Of a stretch of 64,000 nucleotides of DNA, positions 760-23,206 are shown piece by piece. The position numbers and the translations under genes were made by a program. The notes beneath the pieces are model-generated. The model saw only the letters and a program-made list of their open reading frames with translations. It searched no databases and had not been told where the DNA came from. Origin of the DNA: Pyronema omphalodes (Eukaryota > Ascomycota > Pezizomycetes > Pezizales > Pyronemataceae); NCBI GenBank assembly GCA_024516155.1, contig JAJJXM010000008.1, positions 1 through 64,000 of the forward strand. Reading direction: 5' to 3'. Position 1 is the first letter of the stretch, and every line of letters begins with the position of its first letter.

Positions 760-2737
760 CACGGCAACGGCGACCCCCCCCCTGCATTCTCAACAACGAG
801 CACCGAAACCCCCGGTTTTCTCATCGGATTCGGATTCGCAGCACTCTGTTACGTTATTCTCTGAATTTTCAGGGAATTCTACGTCGTTTTTGTTAACTTC
901 TGTCGCAAAATCAGAGTTTTCACGAGTTTTGGCTTACCCCACCTCACGAAATGTCGCCAAAACAACGACAGAACAACGCCCGACGATCGAAACGGTCCGA
1001 AAACGCGTACAATGTTCTAGCCGACCTTCCTCATGATGGATCCAATCCTACTTTCGATGGAAGAGAAGGAAAAGTTGATGAAGTTGATGGAAACTTCGCT
1101 GGAAAACCCTTCCAGAGCGTGGTCTTGGCAGGATCACCAGTTCCTTCGGCTTCAACACACCAGCAACAAGCGACAACTGAACACAGCCGGTTCAGAGCCT
1201 ACCGTCGCTTCTTCGTATCTGCAATTAACGAGGCAGTTGCAGCTGATGAGGGCTATGCCACCCTAGATCAACTGTTCATAGATAACCACGCCGAACTCAC
1301 CGGAGCCAACTTCCTGGGGATACAACAGATCCACCGGGATACACAGCGACGCTTCAATACCCTCGATGACACCATACGCAACAACAGCGATGAGATGCGC
1401 CTCAGATTCGACGTCATGATGACGAAATTCAACATTCTGACCGGCGAAAACACGAAGCTGCGCGCAGCCTACGACTCTACACTGGCAGAAACAGCAGCTC
1501 TCAAGGCTGCTGTGGACGGCCTGACGAAGAAAATCGACGAACAGCAACAAGTCGTTTCGGCGCCCCCCTCACCGAACCTTACGGCCTCTTCCTCAGCGAT
1601 GGAAGAGATGACTATGCAACTGTCCGTCGTCCAACATGACATTCAGGATGTCCTGGACGCTGTTCGCAACCCTCCTGGCAAGAGAAAGCGAAGGGGAAGC
1701 GACCAGAACACCGAACCCACCTCACCGACAAACAGAAGACCGGTGAACCACAAACCGAGAGCGGCATCACCGGTGCGAAGCCTGATGCACATAACATGCG
1801 ACTACCGCCGCCCAGGACAAGCTTGATGCCCTCAAGCCTATGTCCCCCCTACCTCTCCTCGCGATCACGTCAACCGATGCGACACCGGAACCTCACCCTG
1901 ACAGTTCATCTGCTCAGGACACACCTCTACCCGACGCCCCAAGCACTGCCCCTGCTGAGACGAACGGATGGAAGACTGTGGAGGCGAAGGCTACGCAGAA
2001 GAAGAAGATGAAAGCGCAGGAGACGAGACCTACGGCAGCGATACCCAAACAGACCCCTACAACGAAGAATGGTGGAAGGGGTAAGAATACCCACCAACCC
2101 AGAACAACAACCTCCTCCGCAAAGAAGACTTGAGCAGAAGTCGTCAAGAGCGGAGGCATCAACGTCCAGATTGTGCTTGGGAATGGCAATCTTGGACTGA
2201 CAACACCACCGACAAGAAGGGGAGAGAGGCGAGGGGGACCAGCGAGGAGGCTGAGGAAGAAGGAAGGAGAAGGGGAGAGAGGGGAGGAGAAGAGGGGCAG
2301 GGCGGGCCCGGGTGTCTCAAAGGGCAAAGAGTCAGGCGACACCGGCGGAGGAGGGGAGAGAGGAGAGGAGAGTGGGGGCACGGGTGGCCCGGCGGCTGTT
2401 TAACTTTGCTTTGGTTTTGTTTTTGCTTTGCGGAGGAAATAAAGGAGGAAAAATGGTTAAAAATGGGAGGGGAAGGGAGGAGGAAAGGGAGGAGCCCGGC
2501 GAGGCGGCCTCTGTGCAAGCAGGGCACTTGGAACATCAGACGCGCTTGGACAAGAAACCCCCGTAGTATACAGTGGGGACAGACCCCACATCCACAACGA
2601 TCAAGAGGAGGAGACTGGTAGAGGTGGAGACTGGGTTTTTGCTTTTACATTTCTTTCTTCTTCTCTTTTGTATTTATCTGTCCCTTGTCATAACCTTCGG
2701 GTTGCAAACAAGTAATGAGAGAACAAACAACAAACAA
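760..2737 (+). mobile_element. OG2: orphan-Gag element, OG-C subfamily, full length
   Basis: The copy runs from the family 5' terminus (CACGGCAACGGCGACC followed by a C tract) through a 5' UTR of about 190 nt, one ORF and a LINE-C-type 3' UTR to an irregular CAAA tail (AACAAACAACAAACAA). There is no endonuclease or RT. A 12-bp TSD brackets it (748-759 and 2738-2749). The irregular tail and its right flank reappear inside OG4 at 12758-12862, which marks this locus as a source of readthrough RNA. Confidence 0.85.
951..2403 (+). pseudogene. OG2 orphan-Gag ORF, broken
   Basis: The ORF begins MSPKQRQNNARRSKRS at 951. It carries the usual basic N-terminus, coiled-coil core and KRKRR cluster. A small indel near 1789-1796 (the codons for MHSKHA become MHITCD) shifts the frame and ends translation at 1824-1826. 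In the restored downstream frame, a TGG to TGA change in the TWAEVV motif gives a second stop at 2131-2133. The remainder is recognisable to the normal stop at 2401-2403. It is a dead copy of a family that has intact members elsewhere in the window. Confidence 0.85.
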
Positions 2738-3793: not shown

Positions 3794-3809
3794 AACTCTG
3801 GTCGTTGGT

Positions 3810-3840
3810 ACACCACCCAGCAAAGAGCGACCCCCCCCTG
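3810..3840 (+). promoter_or_regulatory. Shared 5'-terminal motif with C tract (LINE-B copy)
   Basis: The terminus ACACCACCCAGCAA, then CGACC, C(8) and TGC, is followed by TTTTCAACAAC. OG elements (for example 760-, 26508-, 60677-) and LINE-C (3109-, 34380-, 60403-) begin with the same pattern ACACCAC, MCRGCAA, GACC, C tract, TGCA. LINE internal promoters and 5' RNA structures sit in this position in other families; the function here is inferred. Confidence 0.6.
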
Positions 3841-4098
3841 CCTTTTCAACAACCACGCCGAAATCGCAAGATTTTATCGCGGATTATTGTTCGGCAGCCC
3901 CGAATTACCTATTCGCAGCCTTTCCAGATCAGGCCCTCTCTTTTCCGTTGAGTTTTCATCGAAAAGGAGTTTTCGGGCCCCTGAGAAAAGCCCCGCGAAC
4001 CGGTTCCATCAACACCACCCTCCACCCACATCAAAAACCATCATTTCAATCGCGGATTCCTTGTCGCTACCGCAGAAACAACTTATTCCGAACTTCCG

Positions 4099-6009
4099 AT
4101 GCCCACCCGATCCTCCGCTGTTGAGAAACAGCCCCTCCCCCCCGACAAAGCGCCCCCTCGAGCGCTCGCGAAAGAAAAACGCGCTAACGCAGAGCCGCAC
4201 GAGTCCGACGCATCCGACGTTGAGATGCACGTAGACACGTGCTCTGACGTCAGCGAGGATTCCAGCGACGACGACGCGTCTCCCCGAGACAGCTCCCCAA
4301 CGCCAACTTCTCGCAACACCACCAACGCCCCACCCAAAACACCCCACAACAAAAAACCCCTCCCTGTAAACTCCGACACCCCCGATCAACTGAGCAACAA
4401 TGACCCCAAATACTCCATCCAACAAACCACCGGAAAACAGAAAAAACGCCCCGCCGCCTCCACTGCCCATACTATCACCCATATCGCCGAAGACTCCACC
4501 CCCGTTTCTGCACAAGTCAAACGACTCCACCACGACATCGCTCCGATCAACGCCACACCTCACAGCAACGCCGCCCTCGCTCAATCCATCGACGTCCTCC
4601 ACCACAATCTTGCTACCACCGCGGACATGTTTCGTCACGCCGACCAGACAACGAATGACAGAATCAACAAAGCGTTCAAGACAATCAACAAGAACCAGTC
4701 CCTCCTCCAATTCATCTATGATGCCGTCCAACTCCTCGCCCCGTCCCTCCTACCGAAAGGAACAGCTACCGCCGTGTCCCCCACCCCCGTCTCCGCATCC
4801 CCCACCTCCCTCGAGACCACCAGCCCCGATACCCAGCCCGTTAACGCCCCTCTCGATTTACCCTCCAAACATGCCCCCCGCCTCAGCGAAGCCGAGTACT
4901 GGAAGCAGAGGTGCTTGAACGCCGAAGCTGAACTCCGGAAGAACGAGCTCCCTCCTCCCCCTCACCTACCCCCTCCCCCACCCCAGGCGAACGAACCGTG
5001 GCAAGGACCAATACCCTCGTCCGTCAAGCTGTTCAAAGAGAAAGCCGCTGCCCCATCAAAGACCCCCCCTAAGACCACCAAACCCAACCCCCAACGCAAG
5101 AACCCCCCCCGCGTCCAAGACATTGTGATCCCCTGCCCTGACCCCCGTGCCCTGCCCGATAGCTCTAAGATCGCCATTGGATTAGCTATCAACGAAGCCC
5201 TACACAAGGCGAAGGTGGAAGGAAACATCATGACGGTTAGGACAAATCTCGCAGGAAGCCTCATGCTTACCCCCTCCACGAACACATCCATTACCGATCT
5301 CACCCCCCACCTCTCTGTTATCCACGCCGCTGCCTGCACACTCCACCCGAACCTCTTGCCCCCCCGACTTAACGAGAAATGGTATAAGCTGGCAGTCCAC
5401 GGAATCCCCACGGACTACTACGAGGACACCGCCGAGGGTATGCGAAAATTGCAGCAAGAAATCGAGACGAACCACAAAGTACGCCTGACACAACCCCCAA
5501 GGTACATCTCTCACCCGGACAAGCGTGTTGGTAAGACCGCCTCCAGTGTGATGATCGCACTGAAGTCCAGCGAGGAATACAACCTCCTCAAGAGAACAAA
5601 GGTGACAGTATTATTCGAACAATGCAAGGTGACAGAATTCTTCACCGCCCGTTCCATTGACCAATGCCGCAGGTGCCAGAAATTTGGACATCATCATGCA
5701 ATCTGCCCAGCTGACAATGGCCCCGCTTGCGCGATATGCGCCGCCCCTCACCCCACCGAATATCACCAATGCGGCCAGTGTCCCACAATCCAGGGCCGCA
5801 AATGTCAACACACCCTCTACAAGTGTGCCAATTGTGTCGCCGCTGGCCTCACAGACGTCCACCACGCCGCATACAGCACCCGCTGCCCCGTCAAAGTGAA
5901 CGTCGTCAGGGAAGCCTGGCAGAAGACTCGCCCGGAGACAACACCCCTAGACGCCATCCCCGCCGAAATAAACCCCATCGCCGACACCACCATGACCGCT
6001 GATGAATAG
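4099..6009 (+). CDS. LINE-B ORF1: Gag-like RNA-binding protein with CCHC knuckles
   Basis: This encodes 636 aa and starts at the first in-frame ATG after the 5' UTR. The N-terminal third is acidic, Ser-rich and proline-rich. A helical stretch at about residues 150-215 could self-associate. The conserved retroelement Gag domain lies at about 340-530 and includes the segment LNEKWYKLAVHGIP. It is followed by Cys/His knuckles: CRRCQKFGHHHAIC (CX2CX4HX4C), then CAICAAPHPTEYHQC and a third Cys-rich cluster (CANC...HH...C). Gag proteins of this class coat the element RNA and form the RNP used for target-primed reverse transcription. The frame overlaps ORF2 by 8 nt (ATGAATAG), suggesting termination-reinitiation. 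No frame break is seen. Confidence 0.9.
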   Translation: MPTRSSAVEKQPLPPDKAPPRALAKEKRANAEPHESDASDVEMHVDTCSDVSEDSSDDDASPRDSSPTPTSRNTTNAPPKTPHNKKPLPVNSDTPDQLSNNDPKYSIQQTTGKQKKRPAASTAHTITHIAEDSTPVSAQVKRLHHDIAPINATPHSNAALAQSIDVLHHNLATTADMFRHADQTTNDRINKAFKTINKNQSLLQFIYDAVQLLAPSLLPKGTATAVSPTPVSASPTSLETTSPDTQPVNAPLDLPSKHAPRLSEAEYWKQRCLNAEAELRKNELPPPPHLPPPPPQANEPWQGPIPSSVKLFKEKAAAPSKTPPKTTKPNPQRKNPPRVQDIVIPCPDPRALPDSSKIAIGLAINEALHKAKVEGNIMTVRTNLAGSLMLTPSTNTSITDLTPHLSVIHAAACTLHPNLLPPRLNEKWYKLAVHGIPTDYYEDTAEGMRKLQQEIETNHKVRLTQPPRYISHPDKRVGKTASSVMIALKSSEEYNLLKRTKVTVLFEQCKVTEFFTARSIDQCRRCQKFGHHHAICPADNGPACAICAAPHPTEYHQCGQCPTIQGRKCQHTLYKCANCVAAGLTDVHHAAYSTRCPVKVNVVREAWQKTRPETTPLDAIPAEINPIADTTMTADE

Positions 6010-9000
6010 ATACGACTCATCAGCGGCGACCCTTCGCATCGTGTCACATAACACGAATCGCAGCGCCACCGCACTATCAACACTGCTGAACTCAGCAGGA
6101 TCCAAAATAGACATATTGCTGGTACAAGAGATTAACGTTAAAGATCCCCGGTACGCAATCACACATCCAGATTTCCTTTTGTTACTTCCCCCCCGCAGCC
6201 ACCACAAAGTCAATCGCACTGCTGCATATATCTCTCGCCTCAACCCACATGTTCGAGTCACACCAAGACCGGACGTCAGCGGAGATCCTGACCTCCAGGT
6301 ACTCGAGGTCAGCACCACACTCATTCCCTCCTTTTACCTCTTAAATATCTATAATGAAAAAGACCCCCAAACAAAATTATATACCGTCCCCCGCTCCCTT
6401 ACCCCCCTCACTCTCCCCCACCGTTGCGTGATCACAGGGGACCTCAATGCCCATCACCCTCTGTGGAACTCCCACGCACGCAGACCAGCGAGAGCAGACG
6501 TGCTGGTGGAACTGATGGAAGACCATCACTGGCAACTGATAAACGTCCCGGACGTTCCTACTTACCACTATCGAGACGGATCGGGCTCTTCGGTCCTCGA
6601 CCTGACTCTGGCAGCCCCGGCGATGGCAAGGGAAATTTCTTCTTGGGCCATTGACGACGGCATTGCCACGGGATCGGACCACGAGGTGATCCGTTTCCAA
6701 ATCAACTCCTTACACCCAGACCACCACAACACCGCCGGCGACACTACACGACTAAACTGGCGCAAGACGGACTGGGAGACCTTCACCGAAGAATTGCAAC
6801 GTCTCACCGAAGCTTCCTACCCCCGGTGGTCCCACCTCCGAGCCAACCCCTCCGCCGAGAACCTCGACGAATGGGCTGCCCTCCTTCGCGACTCTATCCA
6901 AACCGCCGCCGCGATATCAACACCTCCCCTCACCCCAACCCCGCGGTCGAAGAGATGGTGGACGGAGGAGGTACGCCTGACACGTAAAGACATGACCCGG
7001 GCCAGGAGGAGATGGAAACAGACCCGCCTTCCCCAACACCTCGCCGAATACAAACAGTCTCGAAACGCCCACTACAGGAAAGTCCGACATGCAAAGGACT
7101 CCATGTGGAAGGAATACTTAGCCGCGGTGGAAGGACCAGACATATGGGCGGCCTTCCGATATACAAACCCGCGCCGCGCTCAATTGACACCACCGATCAA
7201 GACACAGGTAGGAGGAATGGAGAAGGTATGCGTCGACTTCGACAGTAAGGTAGAGGCCTTTCAAGCGTTATTCCCTCCCCCCCCAGCTGCCCCCCCCACA
7301 CGCACCTCACGACCCAACCCCCAACTCCCCTGGAAAACATTCACCCCCGAAGAAATTTGTACCGCTATCACAACATCCTCCCCCAAGAAAGCCCCCGGCC
7401 CGGACTCCATCACGTTCGCGTGCCTTAGGAAGGCGTACGATGCAGTCCCCAAAGTTTTCAACGCCCTGTACTCAACCTTAAGAACGAAAGGATATCATCC
7501 GCGGAGCTGGCGAGAGGCCACGACGGTGGTGATACCTAAACCAAACAAACCAGACTATAGCGGCATAAAGGCATACCGCCCGATCGCCTTACTCAACTGC
7601 TTGGGCAAGGTGCTAGAAAAACTCATGGCGACCCGGCTCAGCCTTATGGCGGAGTCGCACGACATCCTGCATAAGGATCAGATTGGCGGGCGCCCAAAAC
7701 GCTCGGCAATTGACGCCGCGATGGCACTGACGCATGAGGTAGAAGTTAACGCGGGAAATCGCTTCGTGACGTCTGCCCTATTTTTAGACGTACGAGGAGC
7801 TTTCGATAACGTCTCCTCTGCCAGATTACTGGCAACTATGCACTCACTCGGCTGCCCACAGGCGGTAATATCGTGGTGTTCCTCATTCTTAAGTGACCGC
7901 ACAACCGCCCTATCATTTGACGGCAGAACAGATTCACAGCGACCAATTCCAACCGGCATTCCCCAGGGATCCCCCGCGTCGCCAATACTCTTCCTCATAT
8001 ACCTTCGCCCCCTCTTTGACGCCTTACAATCCGAACACCCGACCCTGTGGACCCCTAGCTATATAGACGACGTTGCCTTGGTGGCCCATGGACGAACGAG
8101 AGAACAAAATGCGCGCGCCCTGGAAGCAGCCGCTCGCACCGCATTCAACTGGGCGCAGACAAACGCGGTAGCATTCGACGATTCCAAATCGGAGATGCTG
8201 CACTTCCATAAGTCGCGAATCGATGAACACAGCGAAGCAACAAACGTGCGCTTACCTAACGGCACCATAGTCACCCCTGGGACTCAAGGAGGCAGCAAGG
8301 ACGTGGTCCGGTGGATTGGCATACATTTTGATCGCAAACTTTCCTTCTCCCAACATGTAAAAATAAGACTGACGGCCGCCGCTAGGTCCCTCAACGCCCT
8401 CCGAAGCTTGGTACGTCACGAAACAGGTCTGTCCCCCTCAGCGACCCGTACACTTTATCAAGCGTGTGTAACCTCTAGGTCGGATTTTGGCTCTGAGATC
8501 TGGTGGAATGGACAAAAAGGACTGGCCAGCACACTACAAACGCAACAAAACTCCGCCCTACGCCGCATACTAAACGCATTCACATCGACCCCCATAGTGG
8601 CCCTACACAACGAAGCCGCCATACCCCCCGTCGCAGTTCGCCTTCAACGCCGCAGCCGCAAATACGCTCTCCGCCTCCTCTCCCTCCCCCCTTCCCACCC
8701 AGTAGTTAGACGCTGCCCTTCCTCCTACCCCGTGCCCAACCACTTCCCCACCTCCATATGTGACCCGTCCGAATATGACTACCCCTGGAACACCACCCAG
8801 AAAGCCCCCTCGCGCCTCGTTCGCATGCTCCGCTCCATCGGTCAGTGGATATTACCAGACGACGAAATCGAGGACACGGCACACCCAAATCCCACCCCGT
8901 GGATAAGCTCACCCCTACGAATAAAGATATCCTCCCTCCCCAAACCCGAAGCCGCCGTCGAACACCACTCGCTGATCCGCGACCTGAGTGACGACAAAAC

Positions 9001-10003
9001 CAACATTATCGCCTGGACAGACGGCTCCCAACTCGAAGGAAAAACAGGCGCCGGATACTGCATCACCTCAGGTTTCCCCCGTCAAGTCAACGAATCCATC
9101 CCCATGGGCACGACCACGGAAGTGTTCGACGCCGGGCTACGAGCAATTCACGACTGCCTCGAGATGTGCCACAAAATCATCTCCCACAACCACCTCCGAC
9201 GCCGCCGGATACACGTCTTTACAGACAACCAGGCGGCCATCCTCCGCGCCTCCCGCACAACATATGGTCCGGGCCAAGAGCTCGCCCGCGCTATACACGA
9301 CATCGCCTCCTCCCTCCGTTCCAAAGACACATCCGTCACCTTACATTGGGTCCCAGGACATACCGATATACCCGGGAATGACCAAGCCGACCTCCTCGCC
9401 AAAACTGCAACCACCCTAACTCCCCCCTCTTCGCTACCGGTCCCCCTGTCCTGGATACGCCGACAGATTCACGATCAATACATCCAAGACTGGACGACCT
9501 GGTACTCCTCCGCGCCGAAACTTAAAACATACGACGCCCCACACCGTCGACGCCTCGACTATGCCTACACGGCCCTACCACGCAAACTATCAACCGCAAT
9601 CTTGGGATTGCGAACCGGACACGGTTATTTTTTGGACTGCCTTGCTCATCCCCCCACCGCCCAATACCCCTCCCGCTCGCGCTCATGCCCCCTTCACCCT
9701 CCGCAATCCCCCAAACATCTCATTCTCTCGTGCCCCTACTTCACTTCCCAACGGACCGAACTGCGACGTACACTGAAAATCCCACGACGACGACACCTCA
9801 CACTACCGACAATCTTACATACCACCGCCGGAACCAAAGCACTGTCCGCTATGATCTCAGAGACCAAGATAGCGACTGCGGAGTGGGCTCACGCAAGGTT
9901 AAGTAAACTCCCCGCTGAGGAGGACACATCTGCTACGCTGACAACAGACTGGGGGACGCTGCTGGACCTGACGGACGAGCACGCGGTTACCTCTAAAAAT
10001 TAA
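6002..10003 (+). CDS. LINE-B ORF2: endonuclease / reverse transcriptase / RNase H
   Basis: This encodes 1333 aa. The APE-type endonuclease (about 10-230) shows RIVSHNTNR, LLVQEI, GDLNAHHPLWNS and GSDHEVI. The RT (about 460-740) shows KAPGPDSITF, RPIALLNCLGK, LDVRGAFDNV (motif A), IPQGSPASPI (motif B) and YIDDV (motif C, about residue 687). RNase H (about 1000-1130) shows WTDGSQ, TDNQAAI and HWVPGHTDIPGNDQAD. The expected catalytic Glu in FDAELRAI is Gly (FDAGLRAI, codon 9134-9136, residue 1045). The C-terminus has the knuckle C-X(11)-H-X4-C (CPLHPPQSPKHLILSC). The product nicks target DNA and copies element RNA at the nick. It is open throughout; RNase H is probably impaired. Confidence 0.93.
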   Translation: MNRYDSSAATLRIVSHNTNRSATALSTLLNSAGSKIDILLVQEINVKDPRYAITHPDFLLLLPPRSHHKVNRTAAYISRLNPHVRVTPRPDVSGDPDLQVLEVSTTLIPSFYLLNIYNEKDPQTKLYTVPRSLTPLTLPHRCVITGDLNAHHPLWNSHARRPARADVLVELMEDHHWQLINVPDVPTYHYRDGSGSSVLDLTLAAPAMAREISSWAIDDGIATGSDHEVIRFQINSLHPDHHNTAGDTTRLNWRKTDWETFTEELQRLTEASYPRWSHLRANPSAENLDEWAALLRDSIQTAAAISTPPLTPTPRSKRWWTEEVRLTRKDMTRARRRWKQTRLPQHLAEYKQSRNAHYRKVRHAKDSMWKEYLAAVEGPDIWAAFRYTNPRRAQLTPPIKTQVGGMEKVCVDFDSKVEAFQALFPPPPAAPPTRTSRPNPQLPWKTFTPEEICTAITTSSPKKAPGPDSITFACLRKAYDAVPKVFNALYSTLRTKGYHPRSWREATTVVIPKPNKPDYSGIKAYRPIALLNCLGKVLEKLMATRLSLMAESHDILHKDQIGGRPKRSAIDAAMALTHEVEVNAGNRFVTSALFLDVRGAFDNVSSARLLATMHSLGCPQAVISWCSSFLSDRTTALSFDGRTDSQRPIPTGIPQGSPASPILFLIYLRPLFDALQSEHPTLWTPSYIDDVALVAHGRTREQNARALEAAARTAFNWAQTNAVAFDDSKSEMLHFHKSRIDEHSEATNVRLPNGTIVTPGTQGGSKDVVRWIGIHFDRKLSFSQHVKIRLTAAARSLNALRSLVRHETGLSPSATRTLYQACVTSRSDFGSEIWWNGQKGLASTLQTQQNSALRRILNAFTSTPIVALHNEAAIPPVAVRLQRRSRKYALRLLSLPPSHPVVRRCPSSYPVPNHFPTSICDPSEYDYPWNTTQKAPSRLVRMLRSIGQWILPDDEIEDTAHPNPTPWISSPLRIKISSLPKPEAAVEHHSLIRDLSDDKTNIIAWTDGSQLEGKTGAGYCITSGFPRQVNESIPMGTTTEVFDAGLRAIHDCLEMCHKIISHNHLRRRRIHVFTDNQAAILRASRTTYGPGQELARAIHDIASSLRSKDTSVTLHWVPGHTDIPGNDQADLLAKTATTLTPPSSLPVPLSWIRRQIHDQYIQDWTTWYSSAPKLKTYDAPHRRRLDYAYTALPRKLSTAILGLRTGHGYFLDCLAHPPTAQYPSRSRSCPLHPPQSPKHLILSCPYFTSQRTELRRTLKIPRRRHLTLPTILHTTAGTKALSAMISETKIATAEWAHARLSKLPAEEDTSATLTTDWGTLLDLTDEHAVTSKN

Positions 10004-10787
10004 AAAAAAAAAAAAAAAATAATAATAAAAAGAAGTAGGAGGAGGACAGAGGGAGGGAGAAGCGGGAGGCGAGAGCGGAGAGAGAGACGAGGGAGAGGGG
10101 AGATGGAGGAAGCGGACGATGACGAGGAGAGAGTGGAGACGGGAGACTGGGAGAGCGGAGGTGTGGTTGTTGTGGAGAATGGAGTATTGTGTTTTTTCTT
10201 TTTGAAACGGGAATGAAAGTGAGGCGAGGAGTCGAGGGAGAGGAGAGACGCGGTGGAGACGGACGGGAGGAGCACGAATGAGGCGAGTACGAGATGGTGA
10301 CGCGGAGAGAAGTGGACGGAGTGGGACGATGGATGGCTGGCGAGCCGAGAGGGAGGAGCGTGGTGAAGGGCGAGGGGAGGGACGTAGAGTAGGGTAGTGG
10401 CACAGGGGAGAGAGGTGCGATGGGGGGGCGTTGACCCGGGGGAGTTATATCTTCTTTTCTTTTCGTTTTGCTTGTTTGTTTTTGCTTTGTGGAGGAAATA
10501 AAGGCGGAAAAACGGTTAAAAAAGGGAGGGGAAGGGTGGAGGAAATGGGGGAACGACCCGGCGAGGTGGCCTCCGAGCGTACAGGGCTCCTGGAACAGAT
10601 GACGCTTGACGAACAAAAGCACAACGAGACTTGGGGGTCTACAACCCCACACCCTAACGACAAGCTCTGGGGCATACCCAGTGAGAGCTTGGCCTAACAC
10701 CCGGGTTTCTTAATTTTGTATTTACTGTAGATTCCGCCATAACCTTACGGTTGGATGCGTGTATGAGTGAATAAATAAATAAATAAA
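10004..10787 (+). other. LINE-B 3' UTR with internal poly(A), hairpins and (TAAA)n tail
   Basis: A run of 17 or more A sits right after the stop (about 10002-10019), followed by about 410 nt of strongly purine-rich DNA. From about 10440 the sequence matches the 3' end of OG-B elements. Two inverted repeats stand out: GGGGT/ACCCC at 10634-10648 and AACC/GGTT at 10741-10752, just before the tail. The internal poly(A) could be the fossil of an older 3' end. Confidence 0.8.
10741..10752 (+). promoter_or_regulatory. 3'-terminal hairpin AACC-TTAC-GGTT (LINE-B / OG-B type)
   Basis: A 4-bp stem with a 4-nt loop lies about 20 nt before the (TAAA)n tail. LINE-C and OG-C have AACC-TTCG-GGTT at the same place (for example 23872-23883). 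LINE-D has AACC/GGTT with a 5-nt loop (38125-38137, 38383-38395). The stem is conserved while the loop and tail vary. In UnaL2-type LINE/SINE pairs a 3' stem-loop is recognised by the RT; the same role is inferred here. Confidence 0.65.
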
Positions 10788-10985
10788 CCCCCGTGAACCA
10801 ACGGCGACCCCCCCCCCTGCATTCTCAACAACGAGCACCGAAACCCCCGGTTTTCTCATCGGATTCGGATTCGCAGCACTCTGTCACGTTATTCTCTGAA
10901 TTTTCAGGGAATTCTACGTTGTTTTTGTTGACTTTTGTCGCAAAATCAGAGTTTTCACGAGTTTTGGCTTACCCCACCTCACGAA

Positions 10986-12440
10986 ATGTCGCCAAAACAA
11001 CGACAGAACAACGCCCGACGATCGAAACGGTCCGAAAACGCGTACAATGTTCTAGCCGACCTTCCTCATGATGGATCTAATCCTACTTTCGATGGAAGAG
11101 ATGGAAAAGTTGATGAAGTTGATGGAAACTTCGCTGGAAAACCCTTCCAGAGCGTGGTCTTGGCAGAATCACCAGTTCCTTCGGCTTCAACACACCAGCA
11201 ACAAGCGACAACTGACCAAAGCCGGTTCAGTACATACCGTCGCAATATTGTATCTACCATTAATAAGGCAGCCCTGGTTGATGACAATTATGCCTCCCTT
11301 GACCAACTGTTTTATGACAGCTACCCCGAAGTCACTGGAGCCAGCTTCCTGTGGATACAACAGATCCATCAGGACACACAGCGACGCTTCAACACCCTCG
11401 ATGACACCACACGCAACAACAGCGATGAGATGCGCCTCAGATTCGACGTCATGATGACGAAATTCAACATTCTGATCGGCGAAAACACGAAGCTGCGCGC
11501 AGCCTACGACTCTACACAGGCAGAAACAGCAGCTCTCAAGGCTGCTGTGGACGCCCTGACGAGGAAAATCGACGAACAGCAACAAGTCATTTCGGCGCCC
11601 CCCTCACCGAACCTCACGGCCTCTTCCTCAGCGATGGAAGAGATGACTATGCAACTGTCCGTCGTCCAACATGACATTCAGGATGTCCTGGACGCTGTTC
11701 GCAACCCTCCTGGCAAGAGAAAGCGAAGGGGAAGCGACCAGAACACCGAACCCACCTCACCGACAAACAGAAGACCGGTGAACCACAAACCGAGAGCGGC
11801 ATCACCGGTGCGAAGCCTGATGCACTCAAAACATGCGACTACCGCCGCCCAGGACAAGCTTGATGCCCTCAAGCCTATGTCCCCGCTACCTCTCCTCGCG
11901 ATCACGTCAACCGATGCGACACCGGAACCTCACCCTGACAGTCCATCTGCTCAGGACACACCTCTACCCGACGCCCCAAACACTGCCCCTGCTGAGACGA
12001 ACGGATGGAAGACTGTGGAGGCGAAGGCTGCACAGAGGAAGAAGCAGAAAGCGAAGGAGACGACACCTACGGCAGCGCCACCCAGCAAGACCCCTACAAC
12101 AAAGAATGGTGGACGGGGAAAGAACACCCACCAACCCAGAACGACAACACCCTCTGCAAAGAAGACTTGGGCAGAAGTCGTCAAGAGCGGAGGCATCAAC
12201 GTCCAGATTGTGCTTGGGAATGGCAATCTTGGACTGACAACACCACCGACAAGAAGGGGAGAGAGGCGAGGGGGAGCAGCGAGGAGGCTGAGGAAGAAGG
12301 AAGGAGAAGGGGAGAGAGAGGAGGAGAAGAGGGGCAGGGCGGGCCCGGGTGTCTCAAAGGGCAAAGAGTCAGGAGACACCGGCGGAGGAGGGGAGAGAGG
12401 AGAGGAGAGTGGGGGCACGGGTGGCCCGGCGGCTGTTTAA
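10986..12440 (+). CDS. OG4 orphan-Gag protein, intact (484 aa)
   Basis: ATG at 10986 is chosen because the frame is open upstream only through non-ATG codons. Order of features: basic N-terminus (KQRQNNARRSKRS), a segment conserved among copies (AYNVLADLPHDGS to about 70), a copy-variable segment (about 75-125), a predicted coiled coil (about 125-200, with RRFNTLDD and ENTKLRAAYDSTQAETAALKA), KRKRR at about 244-248, a Pro/Thr/Ser linker, TWAEVVKSGG at about 394, and an Arg/Gly/Glu-rich tail. It has no CCHC knuckle, endonuclease, RT or RNase H. It is probably an RNA-binding, self-associating Gag-like protein of a non-autonomous element. Function is inferred from composition; no named domain family is claimed. 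Confidence 0.85.
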   Translation: MSPKQRQNNARRSKRSENAYNVLADLPHDGSNPTFDGRDGKVDEVDGNFAGKPFQSVVLAESPVPSASTHQQQATTDQSRFSTYRRNIVSTINKAALVDDNYASLDQLFYDSYPEVTGASFLWIQQIHQDTQRRFNTLDDTTRNNSDEMRLRFDVMMTKFNILIGENTKLRAAYDSTQAETAALKAAVDALTRKIDEQQQVISAPPSPNLTASSSAMEEMTMQLSVVQHDIQDVLDAVRNPPGKRKRRGSDQNTEPTSPTNRRPVNHKPRAASPVRSLMHSKHATTAAQDKLDALKPMSPLPLLAITSTDATPEPHPDSPSAQDTPLPDAPNTAPAETNGWKTVEAKAAQRKKQKAKETTPTAAPPSKTPTTKNGGRGKNTHQPRTTTPSAKKTWAEVVKSGGINVQIVLGNGNLGLTTPPTRRGERRGGAARRLRKKEGEGEREEEKRGRAGPGVSKGKESGDTGGGGERGEESGGTGGPAAV

Positions 12441-12774
12441 CTTTGCTTTGGTTTTGTTTTTGCTTTGTGGAGGAAATACAGGAGGAAAAATGGTTAAAAA
12501 TGGGAGGGGAAGGGAGGAGGAAAGGGAGGAGCCCGGCGAGGCGGCCTCTGTGCAAGCAGGGCACTTGGAACATCAGACGCGCTTGGACAAGAAACCCCCG
12601 TAGTATACAGTGGGGACAGACCCCACAACCACAACGATCAAGAGGAGGAGACTGGTAGAGGTGGAGACTGGGTTTTTGCTTTTACATTTCTTTCTTCTTC
12701 TCTTTTGTATTTATCTGTCCCTTGTCATAACCTTCGGGTTGCAAACAAGTAATGAGAGAACAAACAACAAACAA

Positions 12775-12862
12775 GCGAAGGGGAAGCGACCAGAACACCG
12801 AACCCACCTCACCAACGACCAGAAGACCGGTGAACCACAAACCGAGAGCGGCATCACCGGTG
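12775..12862 (+). repeat. Transduced flank: 88 nt of OG2's right flank inside OG4
   Basis: This matches 2738-2824, including the unusual hybrid CACCAACGACCAGAAG, and follows the same irregular AACAAACAACAAACAA tail. At its end, CACCGGTG joins GGGACAGACC with a short shared GTG/GGG overlap, as expected for a template switch. Confidence 0.8.
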
Positions 12863-13030
12863 GGGACAGACCCCACAACCACAACGATCAAGAGGAGGAG
12901 ACTGGTAGAGGTGGAGACTGGGTTTTTGCTTTTACATTTCTTTCTTCTTCTCTTTTGTATTTATCTGTCCCTTGTCATAACCTTCGGGTTGCAAACAAGT
13001 AATGAGAGAACAAACAAACAAACAAACAAA

Positions 13031-13857: not shown

Positions 13858-14185
13858 TTTATTTATTTATTTATTTATTAACTCATACAGGCATCCAACC
13901 GTAAGGTTATGGCGGAATCTACAGTAAATACAAAATTAAGAAACCCGGGTGTCAGGCCAGGCTCTCACTGGGTATGCCCCAGAGCTTGTCGTCAGGGTGT
14001 GGGGTTGTAGACCCCCAAGTCTCGTTGTGCTTTTGCTCGTCAAGCGTCGTCTGTTCCAGGAGCCCTGTACGCTCGGAGGCCACCTCGCCGGGTCGTTCCC
14101 CCATTTCCTCCACCCTTCCCCTCCCATTTTTAACCATTTTTCCGCCTTTATTTCCCCCGAAAGCAAAAACAAAACCAAAGCAAAG

Positions 14186-15826
14186 TTAAACCGCCGCCGG
14201 GCCACCTACGCCCCCACTCTCCTCCCCTCTCTCAACTCCTCCGCCGGTGTCTCCTGACTCTTTGCCCTTTGAGACACCCGGGCCCGCCCTGCCCCTCTTC
14301 TCCTCCCCTCTCTCCCCTTCTCCTTCCTTCTTCCTCAGTCTTCTCGCTGCTCCCCCTCGCCTCTCTCCCCTTCTTGTCGGTGGTGTTGTCAGTCCAAGAT
14401 TGCCATTCCCCAGCACAATCTGGACGTTGATGCCTCCGCTCTTGACGACTTCTGCCCAAGTCTTCTTTGCAGAGGGGGTTGTTGTTCTGGGTTGGTGGGT
14501 ATTCTTTCCCCGGGCACCATTCTTTGTTGTAGGGGTCTTGCTGGGTGTCGCTGCCGTAGGTGTCGTCTCCTTCGCTTTCTTCTTCTTCCTCTGCGTAGCC
14601 TTCGCCTCCACAGTCTTCCATCCGTTCGACTCAGCAGGGGCAGTGCTTGGGGCGTCGGGTAGAGGTGTGTCCTGAGCAGATGAACTGTCAGGGTGAGGTT
14701 CCGGTGTCGCATCGGTTGACGTGATCGCGAGGAGAGGTAGGGGGGACATAGGCTTGAGGGCATCAAGCTTGTCCTGGGCGGCGGTAGTCGCATGTTTCGA
14801 GTGCATCAGGCTTCGCACCGGTGATGCAGCTCTCGGTTTGTGGTTGACCGGTGCTCTGGTCGTTGGTGAGGTGGGTTCGGTGTTCTGGTCGCTTCCCCTT
14901 CGCTTTCTCTTGCCAGGAGGGTTGCGGACAGCGTCCAGGACATCCTGAATGTCATGTTGGACGACGGACAGTTGCATAGTCATCTCTTCCATCGCTGAGG
15001 AAGAGGCCGTGAGGTTCGGTGAGGGGGGCGCCGAAATGACTTGTTGCTGTTCGTCGATTTTCTTCGTCAGGGCGTCCACAGCAGCCTTGAGAGCTGCTGT
15101 TTCTGCCTGTGTAGAGTCGTATGCTGTGCGCAGCGTCGCGTTTTCGAAGAGCAGATCGTTGAATTTCGTCATCATGACGTCGAATCTGCCGTGTATCGCA
15201 TCGTTGTTGTTGCGCATGGATTCATCGAGGGTATTGAAGCGTCGCTGTGTATCCCGGTGGATCTGTTGTATCCCCAGGAAGTTGGCTCCAGTGAGTTCGG
15301 CGTAGTTGTCATGGAACAGCTGATCCAGGGTGACATAGTTGTCATCAGCTGCGACTGCCTCATTAATCGCAGATACACACAAGCGACGGTATTTACTGAA
15401 CCGGCTGTGTTCAGTTGTCGCCTGTTGCTGCGGTGTAGAAGCCGGAGGGGCTGGTGATCCTGCCGGGACCACGCTCTGGGAGTCGCTCCCAGTGAAGTTT
15501 CTATCAACTCCATCACCTTTTCCATCGCTTCCATCGGAGGCAGGCTTAGAACCATTGCGATAAGAGTTCATCAGGGCGTTGTACTGCTCTACCAACTGTT
15601 TTGTCGTCGGTGGCTGGTGTGTTGAAGCCGAAGGAACTGGTGATCCTGCCAAGACCACGCTCTGGAAGGGTTTTCCAGCGAAGTTTCCATCAACTTCATC
15701 AACTTTTCCATCTCTTCCATCGAAAGTAGGATTAGATCCATCATGAGGAAGGTCGGCTAGAACATTGTACGCGTTTCCGGACCGTTTCGATCGTTGGGCG
15801 TTGTTCTGTCGTTGTTTTGGCGACAT
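14186..15826 (-). CDS. OG5 orphan-Gag protein, intact, with internal duplication (546 aa)
   Basis: Starts at ATG 15826 and ends GGPAAV. It is 62 aa longer than the other intact copies. Residues after about 75 contain a diverged second copy of the segment HDGSNPTFDGRDGKVDEVD (as NGSKPASDGSDGKGDGVD), followed by SQSVVPAGSPAPPAST echoing FQSVVLAGSPVPSAST. The coiled coil, KRKRR, TWAEVVKSGG and Arg/Gly-rich tail are all present. The duplication is diverged, so it is not a recent slip. It sits in the copy-variable part of the protein. Confidence 0.85.
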   Translation of the reverse strand: MSPKQRQNNAQRSKRSGNAYNVLADLPHDGSNPTFDGRDGKVDEVDGNFAGKPFQSVVLAGSPVPSASTHQPPTTKQLVEQYNALMNSYRNGSKPASDGSDGKGDGVDRNFTGSDSQSVVPAGSPAPPASTPQQQATTEHSRFSKYRRLCVSAINEAVAADDNYVTLDQLFHDNYAELTGANFLGIQQIHRDTQRRFNTLDESMRNNNDAIHGRFDVMMTKFNDLLFENATLRTAYDSTQAETAALKAAVDALTKKIDEQQQVISAPPSPNLTASSSAMEEMTMQLSVVQHDIQDVLDAVRNPPGKRKRRGSDQNTEPTSPTTRAPVNHKPRAASPVRSLMHSKHATTAAQDKLDALKPMSPLPLLAITSTDATPEPHPDSSSAQDTPLPDAPSTAPAESNGWKTVEAKATQRKKKKAKETTPTAATPSKTPTTKNGARGKNTHQPRTTTPSAKKTWAEVVKSGGINVQIVLGNGNLGLTTPPTRRGERRGGAARRLRKKEGEGERGEEKRGRAGPGVSKGKESGDTGGGVERGEESGGVGGPAAV

Positions 15827-18702: not shown

Positions 18703-20698
18703 TTTATTTATTTATTTATTTATTAACTCATACACGCATTCAACCGTAAGGTTATGGCGGAATCTACAGTAAATACCAAATTAAGAAACCCGGGTGTTAG
18801 GCCGAGCTCTCACTGGGTATGCCCCAGAGCTTGTCGTTAGGGTGTGGGGTTGTAGACCCCCAAGTCTCGTTGTGCTTTTGTTCGTCAAGCGTCGTCTGTT
18901 CCAGGAGCCCTGTACGCTCGGAGGCCACCTCGCCGGTTCGTTCCCCCATTTCCTCCACCCTTCCCGTCCCATTTTTAACCATTTTTCCGCCTTTATTTCC
19001 CCCACAAGGCAAAAACAAAACCAAAGCAAAGTTAAACAGCCGCCGGGCCACCTGCGCCCCCACTCTCCTCCCCTCTCTCAACTCCTCCGCCGGTGTCTCC
19101 TGACTCTTTGCCCTTGGAAACACCCGGGCCCGCCCTGCCCCTCTTCTCCTCCCCTCTCTCCCCTTCTCCCTCCTTCTTTCTCAGCCTTCTCGCTGCCCCG
19201 CCTCGCCTCTCTCCCCTTCTTGTCGGTGGTGTTGTAAGTCCAAGATTGCCATTCCCAAGCACAATCTGGACGTTGATGCCTCCGCTCTTGACGACTTCTG
19301 CCCAAGTCTTCTTTGCGGAGGGGGTTGTCTGTCTGGGTTGGTGGGTATTCTTTCCCCTGCCACCAGTCTTCGTTGTAGGGGTCTTGCTGGGTGTCGCTGC
19401 CGTAGGTCTCGTCTCCTGCGCTTTCATCTTCTTCTTCTGCGTAGCCTTCGCCTCCACAGTCTTCCATCCGTTCGTCTCAGCAGGGGCAGTGCTTGGGGCG
19501 TCGGGTAGAGGTGTGTCCTGAGCAGATGAACTGTCAGGGTGAGGTTCCGGTGTCGCATCGGTTGACGTGATCGCGAGGAGAGGTAGGGGGGACATAGGCT
19601 TGAGGGCATCAAGCTTGTCCTGGGCGGCGGTAGTCGCATGTTTCGAGTGCATCAGGCTTCGCACCGGTGATGCAGCTCTCGGTTTGTGGTTGACCGGTGC
19701 TCTGGTCGTTGGTGAGGTGGGTTCGGTGTTCTGGTCGCTTCCCCTTCGCTTTCTCTTGCCAGGAGGGTTGCGGACAGCGTCCAGGACATCCTGAATGTCA
19801 TGTTGGACGACGGACAGTTGCATAGTCATCTCTTCCATCGCTGAGGAAGAGGCCGTGAGGTTCGGTGAGGGGGGCGCCGAAATGACTTGTTGCTGTTCGT
19901 CGATTTTCTTCGTCAGGGCGTCCACAGCAGCCTTGAGAGCTGCTGTTTCTGCCTGTGTAGAGTCGTATGCTGTGCGCAGCGTCGCGTTTTCGAAGAGCAG
20001 ATCGTTGAATTTCGTCATCATGACGTCGAATCTGCCGTGTATCGCATCGTTGTTGTTGCGCATGGATTCCTCGAGTGTATTGAAGCGTCGCTGTGTGTCC
20101 CGGTGGATCTGTTGTATCCCCAGGAAGCTGGCCCCATTGAGTTCGGCGTAGTTGTCATGGAACAGCTGATCCAGGGTGGCATAGGTGTCATCAGCTGCAA
20201 CTGCCTCATTAATCGCGGATACACACAAGCGGCGGTAGGTACTGAACCGGCTGTGTTCAGTTGTCGCTTGTAGCTGGTGTGTTGATGCCGAAGGAACTGG
20301 TGATCCTGCCAAGACCACGCTCTGGAAAGGTTTTCCAGCGAAGTTTCCATCAACTTCATCAACTATTCCATCTCTTCCATCAAAAGTAGGATTGGATCCA
20401 TCATGAGGAGGGTCGGCTAGAACATTGTACGCGTTTTCGGACCGTTTCGATCGTCGGGCGTTGTTTTGTCGTTGTTTTGGCGACATTTCGTGAGGTGGGG
20501 TAAGCCAAAACTCGTGAAAACTCTGATTTTGCGACAAAAGTCAACAAAACCAACGTAGAATTCCCTGAAAACTCAGAGAATAACGTAACAGAGTGCTGCG
20601 AATCCCAATCCGATGAGAAAACCGGGGGTTTCGGTGCTCGTTGTTGAGAATGCAGGGGGGGGGGTCGCCGTTGCCGTGTGGTGTCGATTGCTAACACC
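18703..20698 (-). mobile_element. OG7: orphan-Gag element, OG-B subfamily, full length
   Basis: Minus-strand copy with the 5' terminus at about 20684, an intact ORF, an OG-B 3' UTR and a (TAAA)n tail at 18703. The TSD is 13 bp. About 14 nt of filler (20685-20698) separate the 5' terminus from the right TSD. It inserted into LINE-C ORF2. Confidence 0.9.
19032..20486 (-). CDS. OG7 orphan-Gag protein, intact (484 aa)
   Basis: ATG at 20486. It shares the family layout: basic N-terminus, copy-variable segment (YRRLCVSAINEAVAADDTYATLDQ), coiled coil with RRFNTLEESMRNNNDAIHGRFD, KRKRR, the linker with TTRAPVNHKP typical of OG-B, TWAEVVKSGG, and a tail ending GGAGGPAAV. There is no frame break. The coiled-coil variant is the same as in OG5 and differs from OG4, OG9 and OG12. 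It is likely an RNP protein of a LINE-B-dependent element (inference). Confidence 0.85.
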   Translation of the reverse strand: MSPKQRQNNARRSKRSENAYNVLADPPHDGSNPTFDGRDGIVDEVDGNFAGKPFQSVVLAGSPVPSASTHQLQATTEHSRFSTYRRLCVSAINEAVAADDTYATLDQLFHDNYAELNGASFLGIQQIHRDTQRRFNTLEESMRNNNDAIHGRFDVMMTKFNDLLFENATLRTAYDSTQAETAALKAAVDALTKKIDEQQQVISAPPSPNLTASSSAMEEMTMQLSVVQHDIQDVLDAVRNPPGKRKRRGSDQNTEPTSPTTRAPVNHKPRAASPVRSLMHSKHATTAAQDKLDALKPMSPLPLLAITSTDATPEPHPDSSSAQDTPLPDAPSTAPAETNGWKTVEAKATQKKKMKAQETRPTAATPSKTPTTKTGGRGKNTHQPRQTTPSAKKTWAEVVKSGGINVQIVLGNGNLGLTTPPTRRGERRGGAARRLRKKEGEGERGEEKRGRAGPGVSKGKESGDTGGGVERGEESGGAGGPAAV

Positions 20699-23083
20699 CC
20701 TAACAAGCCGGATTACAGCAATCCAAAGGCATACCGTCCGATTGCGCTCCTAAACTGCCTTGGGAAGACCCTCGAAAAACTAATGGCCACTCGCCTAGGC
20801 ACGATGGCAGACTCTCACGACCTACTACATAGAGACCAAATAGGTGGACGCCCGCAGAGATCAGCAATTGACGCGGCGATGGCGCTGGTGCACGACGTCG
20901 AGATTGGGAAATCTCACGGAATGCTAACCTCTGCCCTCTTCCTCGATGTTCGTGGAGCGTTCGACAACGTCTCTGCTGACCGCCTCCAACAAACATTACG
21001 ACAGCTTGGGTGCCCGCGACCAGTAGTATCGTGGTGCCAGTCTTTCCTGGCAGATCGCACGATCGCTCTAGCGTTCGATGGGCGAACTGACACGCAACGC
21101 CCAGTGCAAACAGGCATCCCACAAGGTTCCCCTGCATCCCCCATACTTTTCTTATTATACCTGCGCCCATTATTCGACGAACTAGCACAGGTACACCCGT
21201 ACGCCTGGACACCTAGCTACATTGACGACGTAGCGATCGTCGTCCAGGGACGCACCAGAAAAGCGAACGCCCGCGCACTTGAGAACATCACGACAACAGC
21301 CTTTCGGTGGGCCGACGCAAACGCCGTTGCATTTGACGATGCCAAGTCAGAGCTCCTGCATTTCCACTGGGCACGCACCGATAGCATCACTGAGGAGGAA
21401 AAAGTTAAGTTACCAAACGATACAGTTATCACACCGGGAACACAAGGAGGAGAGAAGGATGTTGTGAGGTGGATAGGCCTGTATTTAGATAGGAAACTTA
21501 ACTTTAGAAAACATGTAGCTAGACGAGCAACCGCCGCGCAAAGAACTCTGAACGCACTGTGTAGGTTAGCACGGTACGAAACAGGTCTGTCCCCCGCTGC
21601 TACAAGACTAATCTACCAGGCGTGTGTCCGGTCGAGAGCAGACTACGGCGCAGAGATATGGTGGAACCAACAAAAAGACCTTGCCCGCACCCTCCAGAAT
21701 CAACAGAACACCGCCCTCCGCAGGATTCTCAACGCTTTCACCTCTACTCCGATCCTGGCCCTCCACAATGAATCCGCACTCCCTCCCGTCACAATACGTC
21801 TTGACAACCGCCAGCGGAAATACGCCCTGCGCACCCTTACCTTACCCGCTTCGCACCCTATCATCACACGCTGCCCCGTCTCGTTTCCCGCCCCGAGTAT
21901 CGATGATGCCTCCATCAACCCAGACACCGAGTACGACCACCCGTGGCACGTCCCAGGACAAGCCCCGTCCCGCCTCCTGCACGTCATCAGCACCCTCTCC
22001 CCGTGGGTCCAACCAAACGCCGAAATCGAGGACACCTCCCAAAACATCCCCGACGACGACCTCGCCGCTACATTAACGATCGACATCTCCTCCTCCCCGA
22101 AGTCTGACGCTGCCGACGACCACCTCCTCCTCCTCCACGCCCTTCGCCAACGATCGGATACTATCCTACTGTACACGGACGGCTCTCAACTTGACGGCAT
22201 AACAGGCGCCGGATACACCATCCCCCACGGGCTGCCACGACCTGTCAACTCCATAGTGCCCATGGGCGACAGAACAGAAGTCTTCGACGTGGAAGTTATG
22301 GCCATCCACGAAGGACTCCGGACATGCCTGACACATATTCGACGCAACGACCTATACGACAAACACATCCACGTTTTTACCGACAACCAGGCCGCGATAC
22401 GTCGAGCCTCTCACCTCGGTCGAGGCCCCGGCCAGGAGCTCGCCTGGGCCATCCACAACACCGCTCACGACCTTCGCACTTACGGTACCTCAATTACCAT
22501 TCACTGGGTCCCAGGACACACTAGCGTCCCCGGAAACGAAGCCGCCGACGAACTGGCCCGACAGGCGACAACAGTACCGCCACGCCGACAAATACCGATA
22601 TCCCTCACTTGGCTGCGCCGCCGCGCTCGAGAGAGGTACACCGAAGACTGGGCTACCTGGTTCACCTCTTTCCCCCGACCGTGCACGTACGCCGCCACAC
22701 ACCGCCGCAAAATGGACACTGCGTACACCGAAAACCCCCGCTGGATATCAACTGCAATCCTGGGTCTTCGCACCGGCCACGGGTACTTCCTCAACTGCTT
22801 GGCCCGCCCTCCATCCGACGCATACCCCTCCCGCAGCTGCAGCTGCCCAATCCATCCACCGCAGACGCCTCGACACCTCCTCCTGAACTGCCCCGGATTC
22901 CAGGCCGCTCGCTCCACACTCAGGAAGGACCTCAAACTCAGACAACACTCCCGGATCAACTTAAACACCATTCTGGACACCCCCTGCGGCACCAAGGCTC
23001 TTTCCACCTTTATCTCTGCAACCAAGGTTGCTACCTCGACCTGGGCACACTCCCGGCTAGAGAAGCCTCGCAGAAGGGGATAG
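20699..23083 (+). pseudogene. LINE-C ORF2, 3' part (RT, RNase H, knuckle)
   Basis: Continues PNKPDYSNPKAYRPIALLNCLGK, then LDVRGAFDNV, IPQGSPASPI, YIDDVAIVV, RNase H (YTDGSQLDGITGAG, EVFDVEVMAI, TDNQAAI, HWVPGHTSVPGNEAAD) and the knuckle CPIHPPQTPRHLLLNC, ending RRRG at 23081-23083. The RNase H catalytic Glu is present (FDVEV). The frame is open. The region around 22800 is where a mosaic of two LINE-C copies is suspected, so this part may derive from a second, inner LINE-C. Confidence 0.88.

Positions 23084-23175: not shown

Positions 23176-23206
<31 letters not shown>

Follow-up and report, generated by a model that had tools for sequence, protein, structure and literature searches.

A protein-coding element without a reverse transcriptase carries the 3' ends of four LINE types in the fungus Pyronema omphalodes

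OG and LINE elements in the window

The window analysed here is the initial 64 kb of a 1.15-Mb contig (C211) in the 60.8-Mb genome of Pyronema omphalodes, and it is a nest of non-LTR (non-long terminal repeat) elements. Besides long interspersed nuclear elements (LINEs) it holds many copies of OG, an element of ~2 kb with a single 484-codon open reading frame (ORF) and without a reverse transcriptase (RT). We found that OG bodies end in the 3' ends of different LINEs. Four such tails, B to E, are named here after the LINEs that also carry them, and OG copies are called OG-B to OG-E accordingly. The LINE features of the window that are used below are the following.

3809..10787, + strand: LINE-B, 5' end at ~3809, with a 3' untranslated region (UTR) and then (TAAA)n
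4099-6009, + strand: LINE-B ORF1, 636 aa, with cysteine/histidine knuckles judged by eye
6002-10003, + strand: LINE-B ORF2, 1333 aa, with APE endonuclease, RT and RNase H
10475..10787, + strand: LINE-B 3' end common to OG-B, 313 nt, 96-98% identical at six OG copies
20678..23924, + strand: LINE-C, 5'-truncated, with part of ORF2 (RT and RNase H), 3' UTR and (CAAA)n
23655..23920, + strand: LINE-C 3' end common to OG-C (start approximate)
38340..38800, - strand: LINE-D 3' end with (CAAA)n; OG copies at loci L018 and L049 bear this tail too

LINE-B is flanked by CCCCCGTGAACC at 3782 and 10788. Several LINE-C copies lie in the window, among them 20678-23924 and 28345-33373, and the ORF2 proteins of LINE-C and LINE-B share ~61% identity. 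The APE-RT-RNase H layout is compatible with several LINE clades.

OG copies were found in both orientations within the window.

765..2735, + strand: OG-C copy, ORF broken by a stop or frameshift at codon 291, target-site duplication (TSD) AGCGAAGGGGAAGC
10799..13030, + strand: OG-C composite copy; OG 5' end, ORF and tail C to 12772, then a 90-nt piece and a second tail
10986..12440, + strand: OG ORF in the composite copy, 484 codons; in Pfam weak coiled-coil matches, all below cut-off
13862..15555, - strand: OG-B copy, LINE-B-like tail
18707..20673, - strand: OG-B copy, full length, ORF intact, TSD CCGGCTTGTTAGG
23924..25381, + strand: OG-C copy, 5'-truncated, LINE-C-like tail
35024..36987, - strand: OG-B copy, rearranged, LINE-B-like tail
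36990..38116, + strand: two tandem OG-C copies, both 5'-truncated, LINE-C-like tails
39311..41278, + strand: OG-B copy, full length, ORF intact, LINE-B-like tail
41282..41976, + strand: OG-C fragment, LINE-C-like tail cut short
41976..43954, - strand: OG-C copy, full length, ORF broken, TSD present
45471..47350, - strand: OG-B copy with a single in-frame stop, LINE-B-like tail
60688..62659, + strand: OG-C copy, ORF broken, LINE-C-like tail
62658..63669, + strand: OG-B copy, 5'-truncated, LINE-B-like tail

OG shares its 3' ends with LINE-B and LINE-C

The terminal 313 nt of LINE-B were found behind six OG bodies, with TAAA tails, at 13862-14173, 18707-19019, 35024-35336 and 45471-45783 on the minus strand and at 40966-41278 and 63358-63669 on the plus strand. 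The 3' end of LINE-C (23590-23924) recurred at 92-95% identity, with CAAA tails, behind eight OG bodies (2414-2743, 12451-12780, 25059-25381, 37092-37418, 37795-38116, 62337-62659, 41976-42301 on the minus strand, and 41763-41976, which is cut short). Chance is excluded for these 14 matches (E 5e-87 to 2e-153). An earlier note on this sequence had described both sets. Its six copies with the LINE-B end and TAAA were confirmed (six matches, 96-98%) and so was its count of eight for LINE-C, in both cases as totals and not copy number by copy number, but the ~330 nt that it assigned to LINE-C had to be shortened to ~260 nt, because the preceding ~60 nt are LINE-B/E-like.

Across the genome, an exact 45-letter word spanning the OG-C junction occurred 126 times (75 forward, 51 reverse) and an exact 48-letter word for the OG-B junction 84 times (43 forward, 41 reverse); reversed-pattern controls gave 0 for either word. 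At least three of the 84 OG-B words coincide with listed E-tail places, and the 126 OG-C words include at least one OG-D copy (C159). When 88 OG ORFs were searched 20-140 nt downstream, the C word was found for 29 and the B word for 12, the 47 unassigned ones partly reflecting the use of 100 of the 126 C-word places. Partial tails and three loci in the window (L009, L012, L039) were omitted from the genome-wide locus sets.

We aligned 98 3' ends (43 OG-C, 16 OG-B, 28 LINE-B, 9 LINE-C and 2 unclassified) and scored identity per 20 columns; this alignment predates the recognition of tails D and E, and its OG groups contain a few D- and E-tail copies. OG-B and OG-C bodies were mostly 91-95% alike, yet their terminal ~180 nt failed to align (mostly 25-60% identity). 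In this terminal part OG-C was 98-99% identical to LINE-C and OG-B 94-100% identical to LINE-B. The LINE-B and LINE-C tails have a homologous block of ~130 nt in common (66-88% identical per 20 columns), so that tails B and C are not independent within it.

The OG-C tail is a mosaic of two LINE types

The composite copy illustrates the arrangement of the OG-C 3' UTR.

12455..12514, + strand: LINE-B/E-like remnant, start of the OG-C 3' UTR (limits approximate)
12502..12514, + strand: switch stretch GGGAGGGGAAGGG, LINE-B/E-like before it and LINE-C after it
12515..12772, + strand: LINE-C-derived terminal part with the 3' hairpin and (CAAA)n, 98-99% identical to LINE-C

Where the shared block begins, OG-C was 97% identical to LINE-B and 65% identical to LINE-C. 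The change from B/E to C falls in the block that all LINE tails have in common, beside GGGAGGGGAAGGG. Every copy was scored for such changes against four real LINE copies as references. All 39 anchored OG-C copies were LINE-B/E-like before GGGAGGGGAAGGG and LINE-C after it, all 16 anchored OG-B copies were B/E and then B, and all 44 anchored LINE copies were unmixed. An anchor was missing from nine of the 113 non-reference rows (4 LINE-C, 1 LINE-E, 1 OG-B, 2 OG-C, 1 OG-E). Five E-tail rows with an OG match starting past reference position 1550, which were low-complexity matches within LINE-E-like 3' UTRs or very short pieces, were not counted as OG; they stand as LINE in this scoring and in the insertion-site comparison given below. 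Since the first nucleotides of the OG tail are as close or closer to LINE-E than to LINE-B, we call the ancestral tail B/E-type.

Tails D and E

Two further OG tail types, D and E, were each also found on LINEs. Tail D ends the LINE at 38340-38800 (minus strand) of the window and a LINE at L062, and at L077 and L078 it follows 3' UTR sequence that is LINE-like and not of OG. LINEs at L021/L072, L073, L075 and L076 end in tail E. The LINE-D ORF2 (L062) has 67% DNA identity to LINE-C and the LINE-E ORF2 ~73% to LINE-B. Both tails had ~40 strong genome matches each, among the best 40 candidates scored. OG-D copies were found at L018 and L049 and OG-E copies at L013, L047 and L066, with a more diverged one at C134:7044. 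The two OG subfamilies proposed earlier, each with the end of a different LINE, are both present, but they belong to a set of four tail types with mosaic junctions.

The OG-D tails were 96-98% identical to LINE-D. At L018 a LINE-C stretch runs up to CAGGGCAC and is followed by LINE-D, which makes this copy a nested capture on an OG-C background. At L049 LINE-D starts earlier, at GGACACCC, after just two LINE-C-type letters; judged from this junction, it is probably a second C-to-D capture.

OG bodies and their tails have different histories

A body tree was built by a quick method from 41 OG bodies, namely those starting by position 600, with E tails left out. Copies with 31 C tails, one D tail and one B tail formed one clade (support 100 in the Shimodaira-Hasegawa-like approximate likelihood ratio test, SH-aLRT), in which the OG-C branches are short and the D-tail copy and the B-tail copy (L029, C163) are nested. 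The tree needs three tail changes, compared with a shuffled mean of 9.2; none of 200 shuffles was as low. Among the tails, OG and LINE rows were letter-for-letter identical in three sets for B and in two for C. The earlier note had proposed separate ORF and 3'-end trees and had named congruent trees, with the LINE ends outside OG, as the outcome that would count against it. This outcome was not seen, as D- and B-tail copies sit within the OG-C clade. The body tree is discordant with the tails.

A second family, OG2 (L069-L071), has 58% protein identity to OG1. At the DNA level OG2 and OG1 are 75-78% identical where most of the body aligns and 91-93% identical in the final 350 nt of the ORF; the tail of OG2 is tail B, at 98-99%. 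The exact B word was found 20-140 nt downstream of 11 of 16 OG2 ORFs, five being unassigned. Since OG2 is close to OG1 only at the ORF end and the tail, exchange may also carry the ORF end along.

OG bodies are themselves mosaic (L069-L071; proteins P0001 and P0063), and P0001 differs in its central segment. OG-C has two 5' types, 98% and 93-95% identical to the reference.

The OG gene

In the full-length copies that were fetched, the tail lies directly 3' of the OG ORF, with no RT between them. The ORF was intact in 29 of 34 full-length copies, and 81 of the best 88 OG protein matches had no internal stop (frameshifts uncounted), both sets being best search matches that favour good copies. 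With broken copies excluded, the ratio of nonsynonymous to synonymous substitution rates (dN/dS) was 0.42 between OG1 and OG2 (84 pairs), 0.43 between OG-B and OG-C and 0.50 within OG-C, and it fell to 0.18-0.28 over residues ~170-300 (0.21 for OG1-OG2). Relatives of the protein at 50-60% identity came from JGI sources and from P. omphalodes, among the best 120 of 160 proteins; the alignment holds 38 sequences. Because of the intact ORFs, the dN/dS values and these relatives, the gene looks as if it has been kept by selection across diverged families.

The protein itself had weak coiled-coil matches, below the Pfam cut-off, and a basic stretch, and gave no PDB match at E 0.1. It is probably a coiled-coil, basic and presumably RNA-binding protein. 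We also considered whether the OG ORF is a LINE ORF1. No blastp match to the ORF1s of the window LINEs was found at E 1e-3, and hhalign against a LINE ORF1 profile gave a probability of 0.7%, so that neither comparison supports this identity; with only six sequences on the LINE side, a very old link between the two is still possible. The purine-rich end of the OG ORF (12240-12437) resembles the purine-rich 3' UTRs of LINE-E weakly (76-87% over ~65-80 nt), a similarity in low-complexity sequence that may or may not reflect homology.

Ends, insertion features and a composite copy

The first ~55 nt of OG aligned with the 5' ends of LINE-B (score 54) and LINE-C (score 53). The best of 500 shuffles reached 24 and 25, and none of 315 LINE-B windows scored as high. 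Together with the shared 3' ends, this alignment means that OG is bounded by LINE-type sequence at either end. When folded, the four tails all form a similar hairpin, with xAAA repeats, and between C and D the lower stem of the hairpin shows a paired change (CTTGT/ACAAG and CTCGT/ACGAG).

As in non-LTR elements that insert by target priming, full-length OG-C copies had TSDs (23 of 30, mostly 13-15 nt), and truncations are common in OG-C, which ends in (CAAA)n. Mismatched flank pairs reached the TSD threshold in 35 of 2970 cases. Repeats and truncations were also seen with tails B, D and E. The overall TSD yield was 24 of 55 rows.

In the composite copy (10799-13030) the first tail C is followed by a 90-nt internal OG piece, 12773-12862 (equal to 11721-11810), and by a second tail C at 12860-13027, the whole lying between CCCCCGTGAACC copies at 10788 and 13031. 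The first join (the tail and then AGCGAAGGGG) recurs behind the copy at 765-2735. Because this join is recurrent, it may be a product of read-through, and a jump or a deletion needs to be invoked for the second join alone. The composite may derive from a read-through transcript of an OG-C copy nested in another OG, and its second join fits a jump between templates.

The copy at 765-2735 and the composite share the junction of the tail with AGCGAAGGGGAAGC (window 2465-3103 and 12773-12862). LINE-B and the composite share one target, with CCCCCGTGAACC present three times (3782, 10788, 13031), within an apparent LINE-C copy.

A probable route for tail exchange

We consider it likely, with a probability of about 0.7, that OG is a coding, RT-less parasite of LINEs, which would be copied by them in trans and would have exchanged its tails repeatedly by template switching. 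This reading draws on the tail identities, the mosaic junctions, the tail changes on the body tree, the selected intact ORFs and the TSDs of full-length OG-C. OG would then be a non-autonomous non-LTR retrotransposon with LINE-type ends around a single gene of its own. A LINE RT would recognise the 3' end of OG RNA, with its hairpin and TAAA or CAAA repeats, and copy OG in trans. In target-primed reverse transcription the enzyme would begin at the RNA 3' end, at a nick; an RT engaged on its own LINE RNA would copy ~150-300 nt and then jump at the shared block onto OG RNA. The product would be an OG body with the terminal ~160-310 nt of that LINE, and the same LINE could copy it again. Such a jump would explain why the exchange reaches the 3' end, why the switch lies in shared sequence and why there are no reciprocal LINE mosaics. 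We take template switching during target-primed reverse transcription as the most likely route, and infer, as the earlier note did, that the copying enzyme changed along with the tail, the RT of the matching LINE being used. The order of events would have been as follows. Tail C, which has one junction type and belongs to a large family of recent origin, arose from a LINE-B/E-type tail. Tail D arose in turn from tail C, on one occasion at least and probably on two. Tails B and E would be separated by one or more further exchanges, and one OG-C body would later have acquired tail B from OG-B.

More tentatively, at somewhat less than even odds, OG may be a coding retro-satellite whose conserved 3' UTR block serves as a landing site for jumps, by which it would acquire the tail and the replicase of whichever LINE is active. 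There would have been at least three tail changes over four tail types in one genome, with nested junctions recording the partners and with its own protein selected for acting on its own RNA.

Several results weigh against copying in trans with repeated template switching. TSDs were found in only one of three full-length OG-B copies and in none of nine other tail-B rows, three of which are OG2 with a wrong 5' limit, as their alignment to OG1 begins inside the element. None were found in nine 5'-truncated OG-C, two OG-D and two OG-E rows, and at least one of the 23 OG-C TSDs (C162:581601) is probably spurious, since it matches the 5' motif of OG itself. Compared with shuffles, the single-tail hairpins of B (z 0.0) and C (z -0.6) were not more stable, the values for D and E being -1.8 and -2.0. 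Insertion-site letters did not separate B from C users, with permutation p values of 0.53 for OG-B/LINE-B, 0.82 for OG-C/LINE-C, 0.09 for OG-B/OG-C, 0.77 for LINE-B/LINE-C and 0.21 for LINE-B/OG-C; as a measure of partner specificity they were uninformative and were dropped. Tail-only trees had no supported branch (approximately unbiased test, p 0.355 for B and 0.998 for C), so that single and many captures of B or C cannot be told apart in them. The tail at L029 bears OG-B-specific letters and thus came from OG-B, not directly from LINE-B. The OG-E tails match LINE-E at only 91-95%, and the LINE-C stretch at L049 consists of two letters, which makes a second capture there probable and not certain. 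The composite copy was considered as proof of template jumping, and this was weakened by the recurrence of its first join elsewhere. Gene conversion at the DNA level would yield similar mosaics, and the many-copy OG sample consists mostly of best search matches, favouring intact, similar copies.

Tails could in principle have been swapped as DNA, by ectopic gene conversion or recombination between nested OG and LINE copies and with no role for an RT. OG and LINE copies are indeed densely nested, in blocks at single contig ends (68 of 68 junctions listed), and the switch points fall within homologous sequence. We nevertheless regard a swap of DNA as unlikely: the exchanged part includes the extreme 3' end and the repeats there, a reciprocal mosaic was found in none of 44 LINE copies, and template jumps by a fungal LINE have been proposed from chimeras within single TSDs (PMC2104539). 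It is likewise doubtful that OG, with any of its tails, is moved by a single LINE enzyme of relaxed recognition, the exchange being incidental and the replicase unchanged. The similar hairpin and xAAA repeats on all four tails, the like insertion-site letters of B and C users and the common target site of LINE-B and the OG-C composite would agree with one such enzyme. However, each tail matches one LINE over ~160-310 nt (94-100% for B and C, 96-98% for D, 91-95% for E), more than a relaxed recognition of poly(A) type would keep, and OG-C is numerous (126 exact junctions) with short branches, as expected after a new partnership.

Least probable, and by a wide measure, is that OG derives from an ancestral LINE by a HAL1-like internal deletion, its B, C, D and E tails having descended with the LINE lineages. 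OG does share LINE 5' and 3' ends and, like HAL1, is without ORF2. However, its bodies are mostly only 5-9% different while the B and C tails cannot be aligned over ~180 nt, mosaic junctions are present, and the OG ORF is unlike the ORF1 profile from six LINE sequences (hhalign, 0.7%). Vertical descent of the tails is ruled out by the discordance of bodies and tails and by the mosaic junctions; a deletion origin long before the tail swaps is possible.

Comparison with known elements

HAL1 of mammals is a non-autonomous element with an ORF1-type protein only, which needs the RT of full LINEs and has arisen several times (PMC5753468, PMC5322556). OG resembles it in keeping a single ORF without ORF2; it differs in that HAL1 has the ORF1 of L1 and a poly(A) tail, whereas the OG ORF shows no detectable relation to the ORF1 of its partners and its tails are those of four LINEs. 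The abundant HeT-A element of Drosophila is a Gag-only non-LTR element that has no enzymes and likely uses the RT of another element (PMC5537684). HeT-A is telomeric, lies in one orientation and has a Gag resembling that of TAHRE; unlike it, OG occurs in both orientations, with TSDs on full-length OG-C and with four tail types. Coding, RT-less parasites of LINEs thus exist, as HAL1 and HeT-A are known.

In short interspersed nuclear elements (SINEs) with LINE tails, such as UnaSINE1/UnaL2 and the CORE-SINEs, the 3' end of the partner is thought to recruit its RT (PMC3747384), and Mg-SINE likewise has the 3' end of its partner LINE, MGL (PMC2104539). OG has its 3' end in common with a partner LINE over ~160-310 nt and does so with four LINE types; it differs from SINEs in its length of ~2 kb, its protein under purifying selection and its LINE-like 5' end. 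The sharing of 3' ends in the manner of LINE/SINE pairs by a protein-coding element, put forward in the earlier note, is therefore borne out: OG has no RT, its bodies are alike and its exchanged tails match different LINEs. ARAGORN found no tRNA in the window; 5S and 7SL heads were outside this search. Tail exchange occurs among SINE families.

For the MINE chimeras of Magnaporthe, each found inside one TSD, a jump of the LINE RT from one RNA to another has been proposed (PMC2104539). In the composite copy OG, the 90-nt OG piece and the second tail are joined between CCCCCGTGAACC repeats, but the first join recurs elsewhere and may reflect read-through of a nested locus. MINE consists of a cellular non-coding RNA before a 5'-truncated LINE, whereas the OG chimera has become the form that replicates and its exchange has been repeated.

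Our results suggest that OG has several times changed the element whose enzyme it borrows. The survival of a LINE parasite after the extinction of its partner is usually inferred from old SINE families. OG offers a recent exchange in which donor LINEs, recipient and junctions can all still be read, and in which the gene of the recipient is under selection. OG makes testable, in one saprotrophic fungus, both the reading of a specific 3' end by a LINE RT and the gain that a non-autonomous element may draw from its own presumed RNA-binding protein. If true, its nested junctions are a readable record of past LINE partners. We know of no case that joins nested junctions and four LINE tails within a single genome to a gene unrelated to the ORF1 of its partners, and a literature search, with most subscription journals outside its reach, found no element of this combined kind described.

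Other LINEs and the position of OG in the genome

A broken and more distant LINE with its own ORF1 lies at 50632-55442 of the window, the first part of its ORF2 being ~28% identical to LINE-B. In the genome, 150 listed RT matches outscore LINE-B and LINE-C. No tblastn match to the window LINE proteins was found at 1e-20 for L001-L008, and these loci and the 150 matches are other RT elements, perhaps LTR elements.

The 68 OG junctions listed on 11 long contigs (C151, C152, C155, C159, C162, C163, C171, C174, C186, C187 and C211) are all no more than 175 kb away from a contig end, where an even spread predicts 55%; these counts rest on 100 of the 126 OG-C junction places. Among the junctions listed, the blocks lie at a single end of each contig and at both ends in none of the 11. 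The OG blocks at contig ends may be centromeric or subtelomeric.

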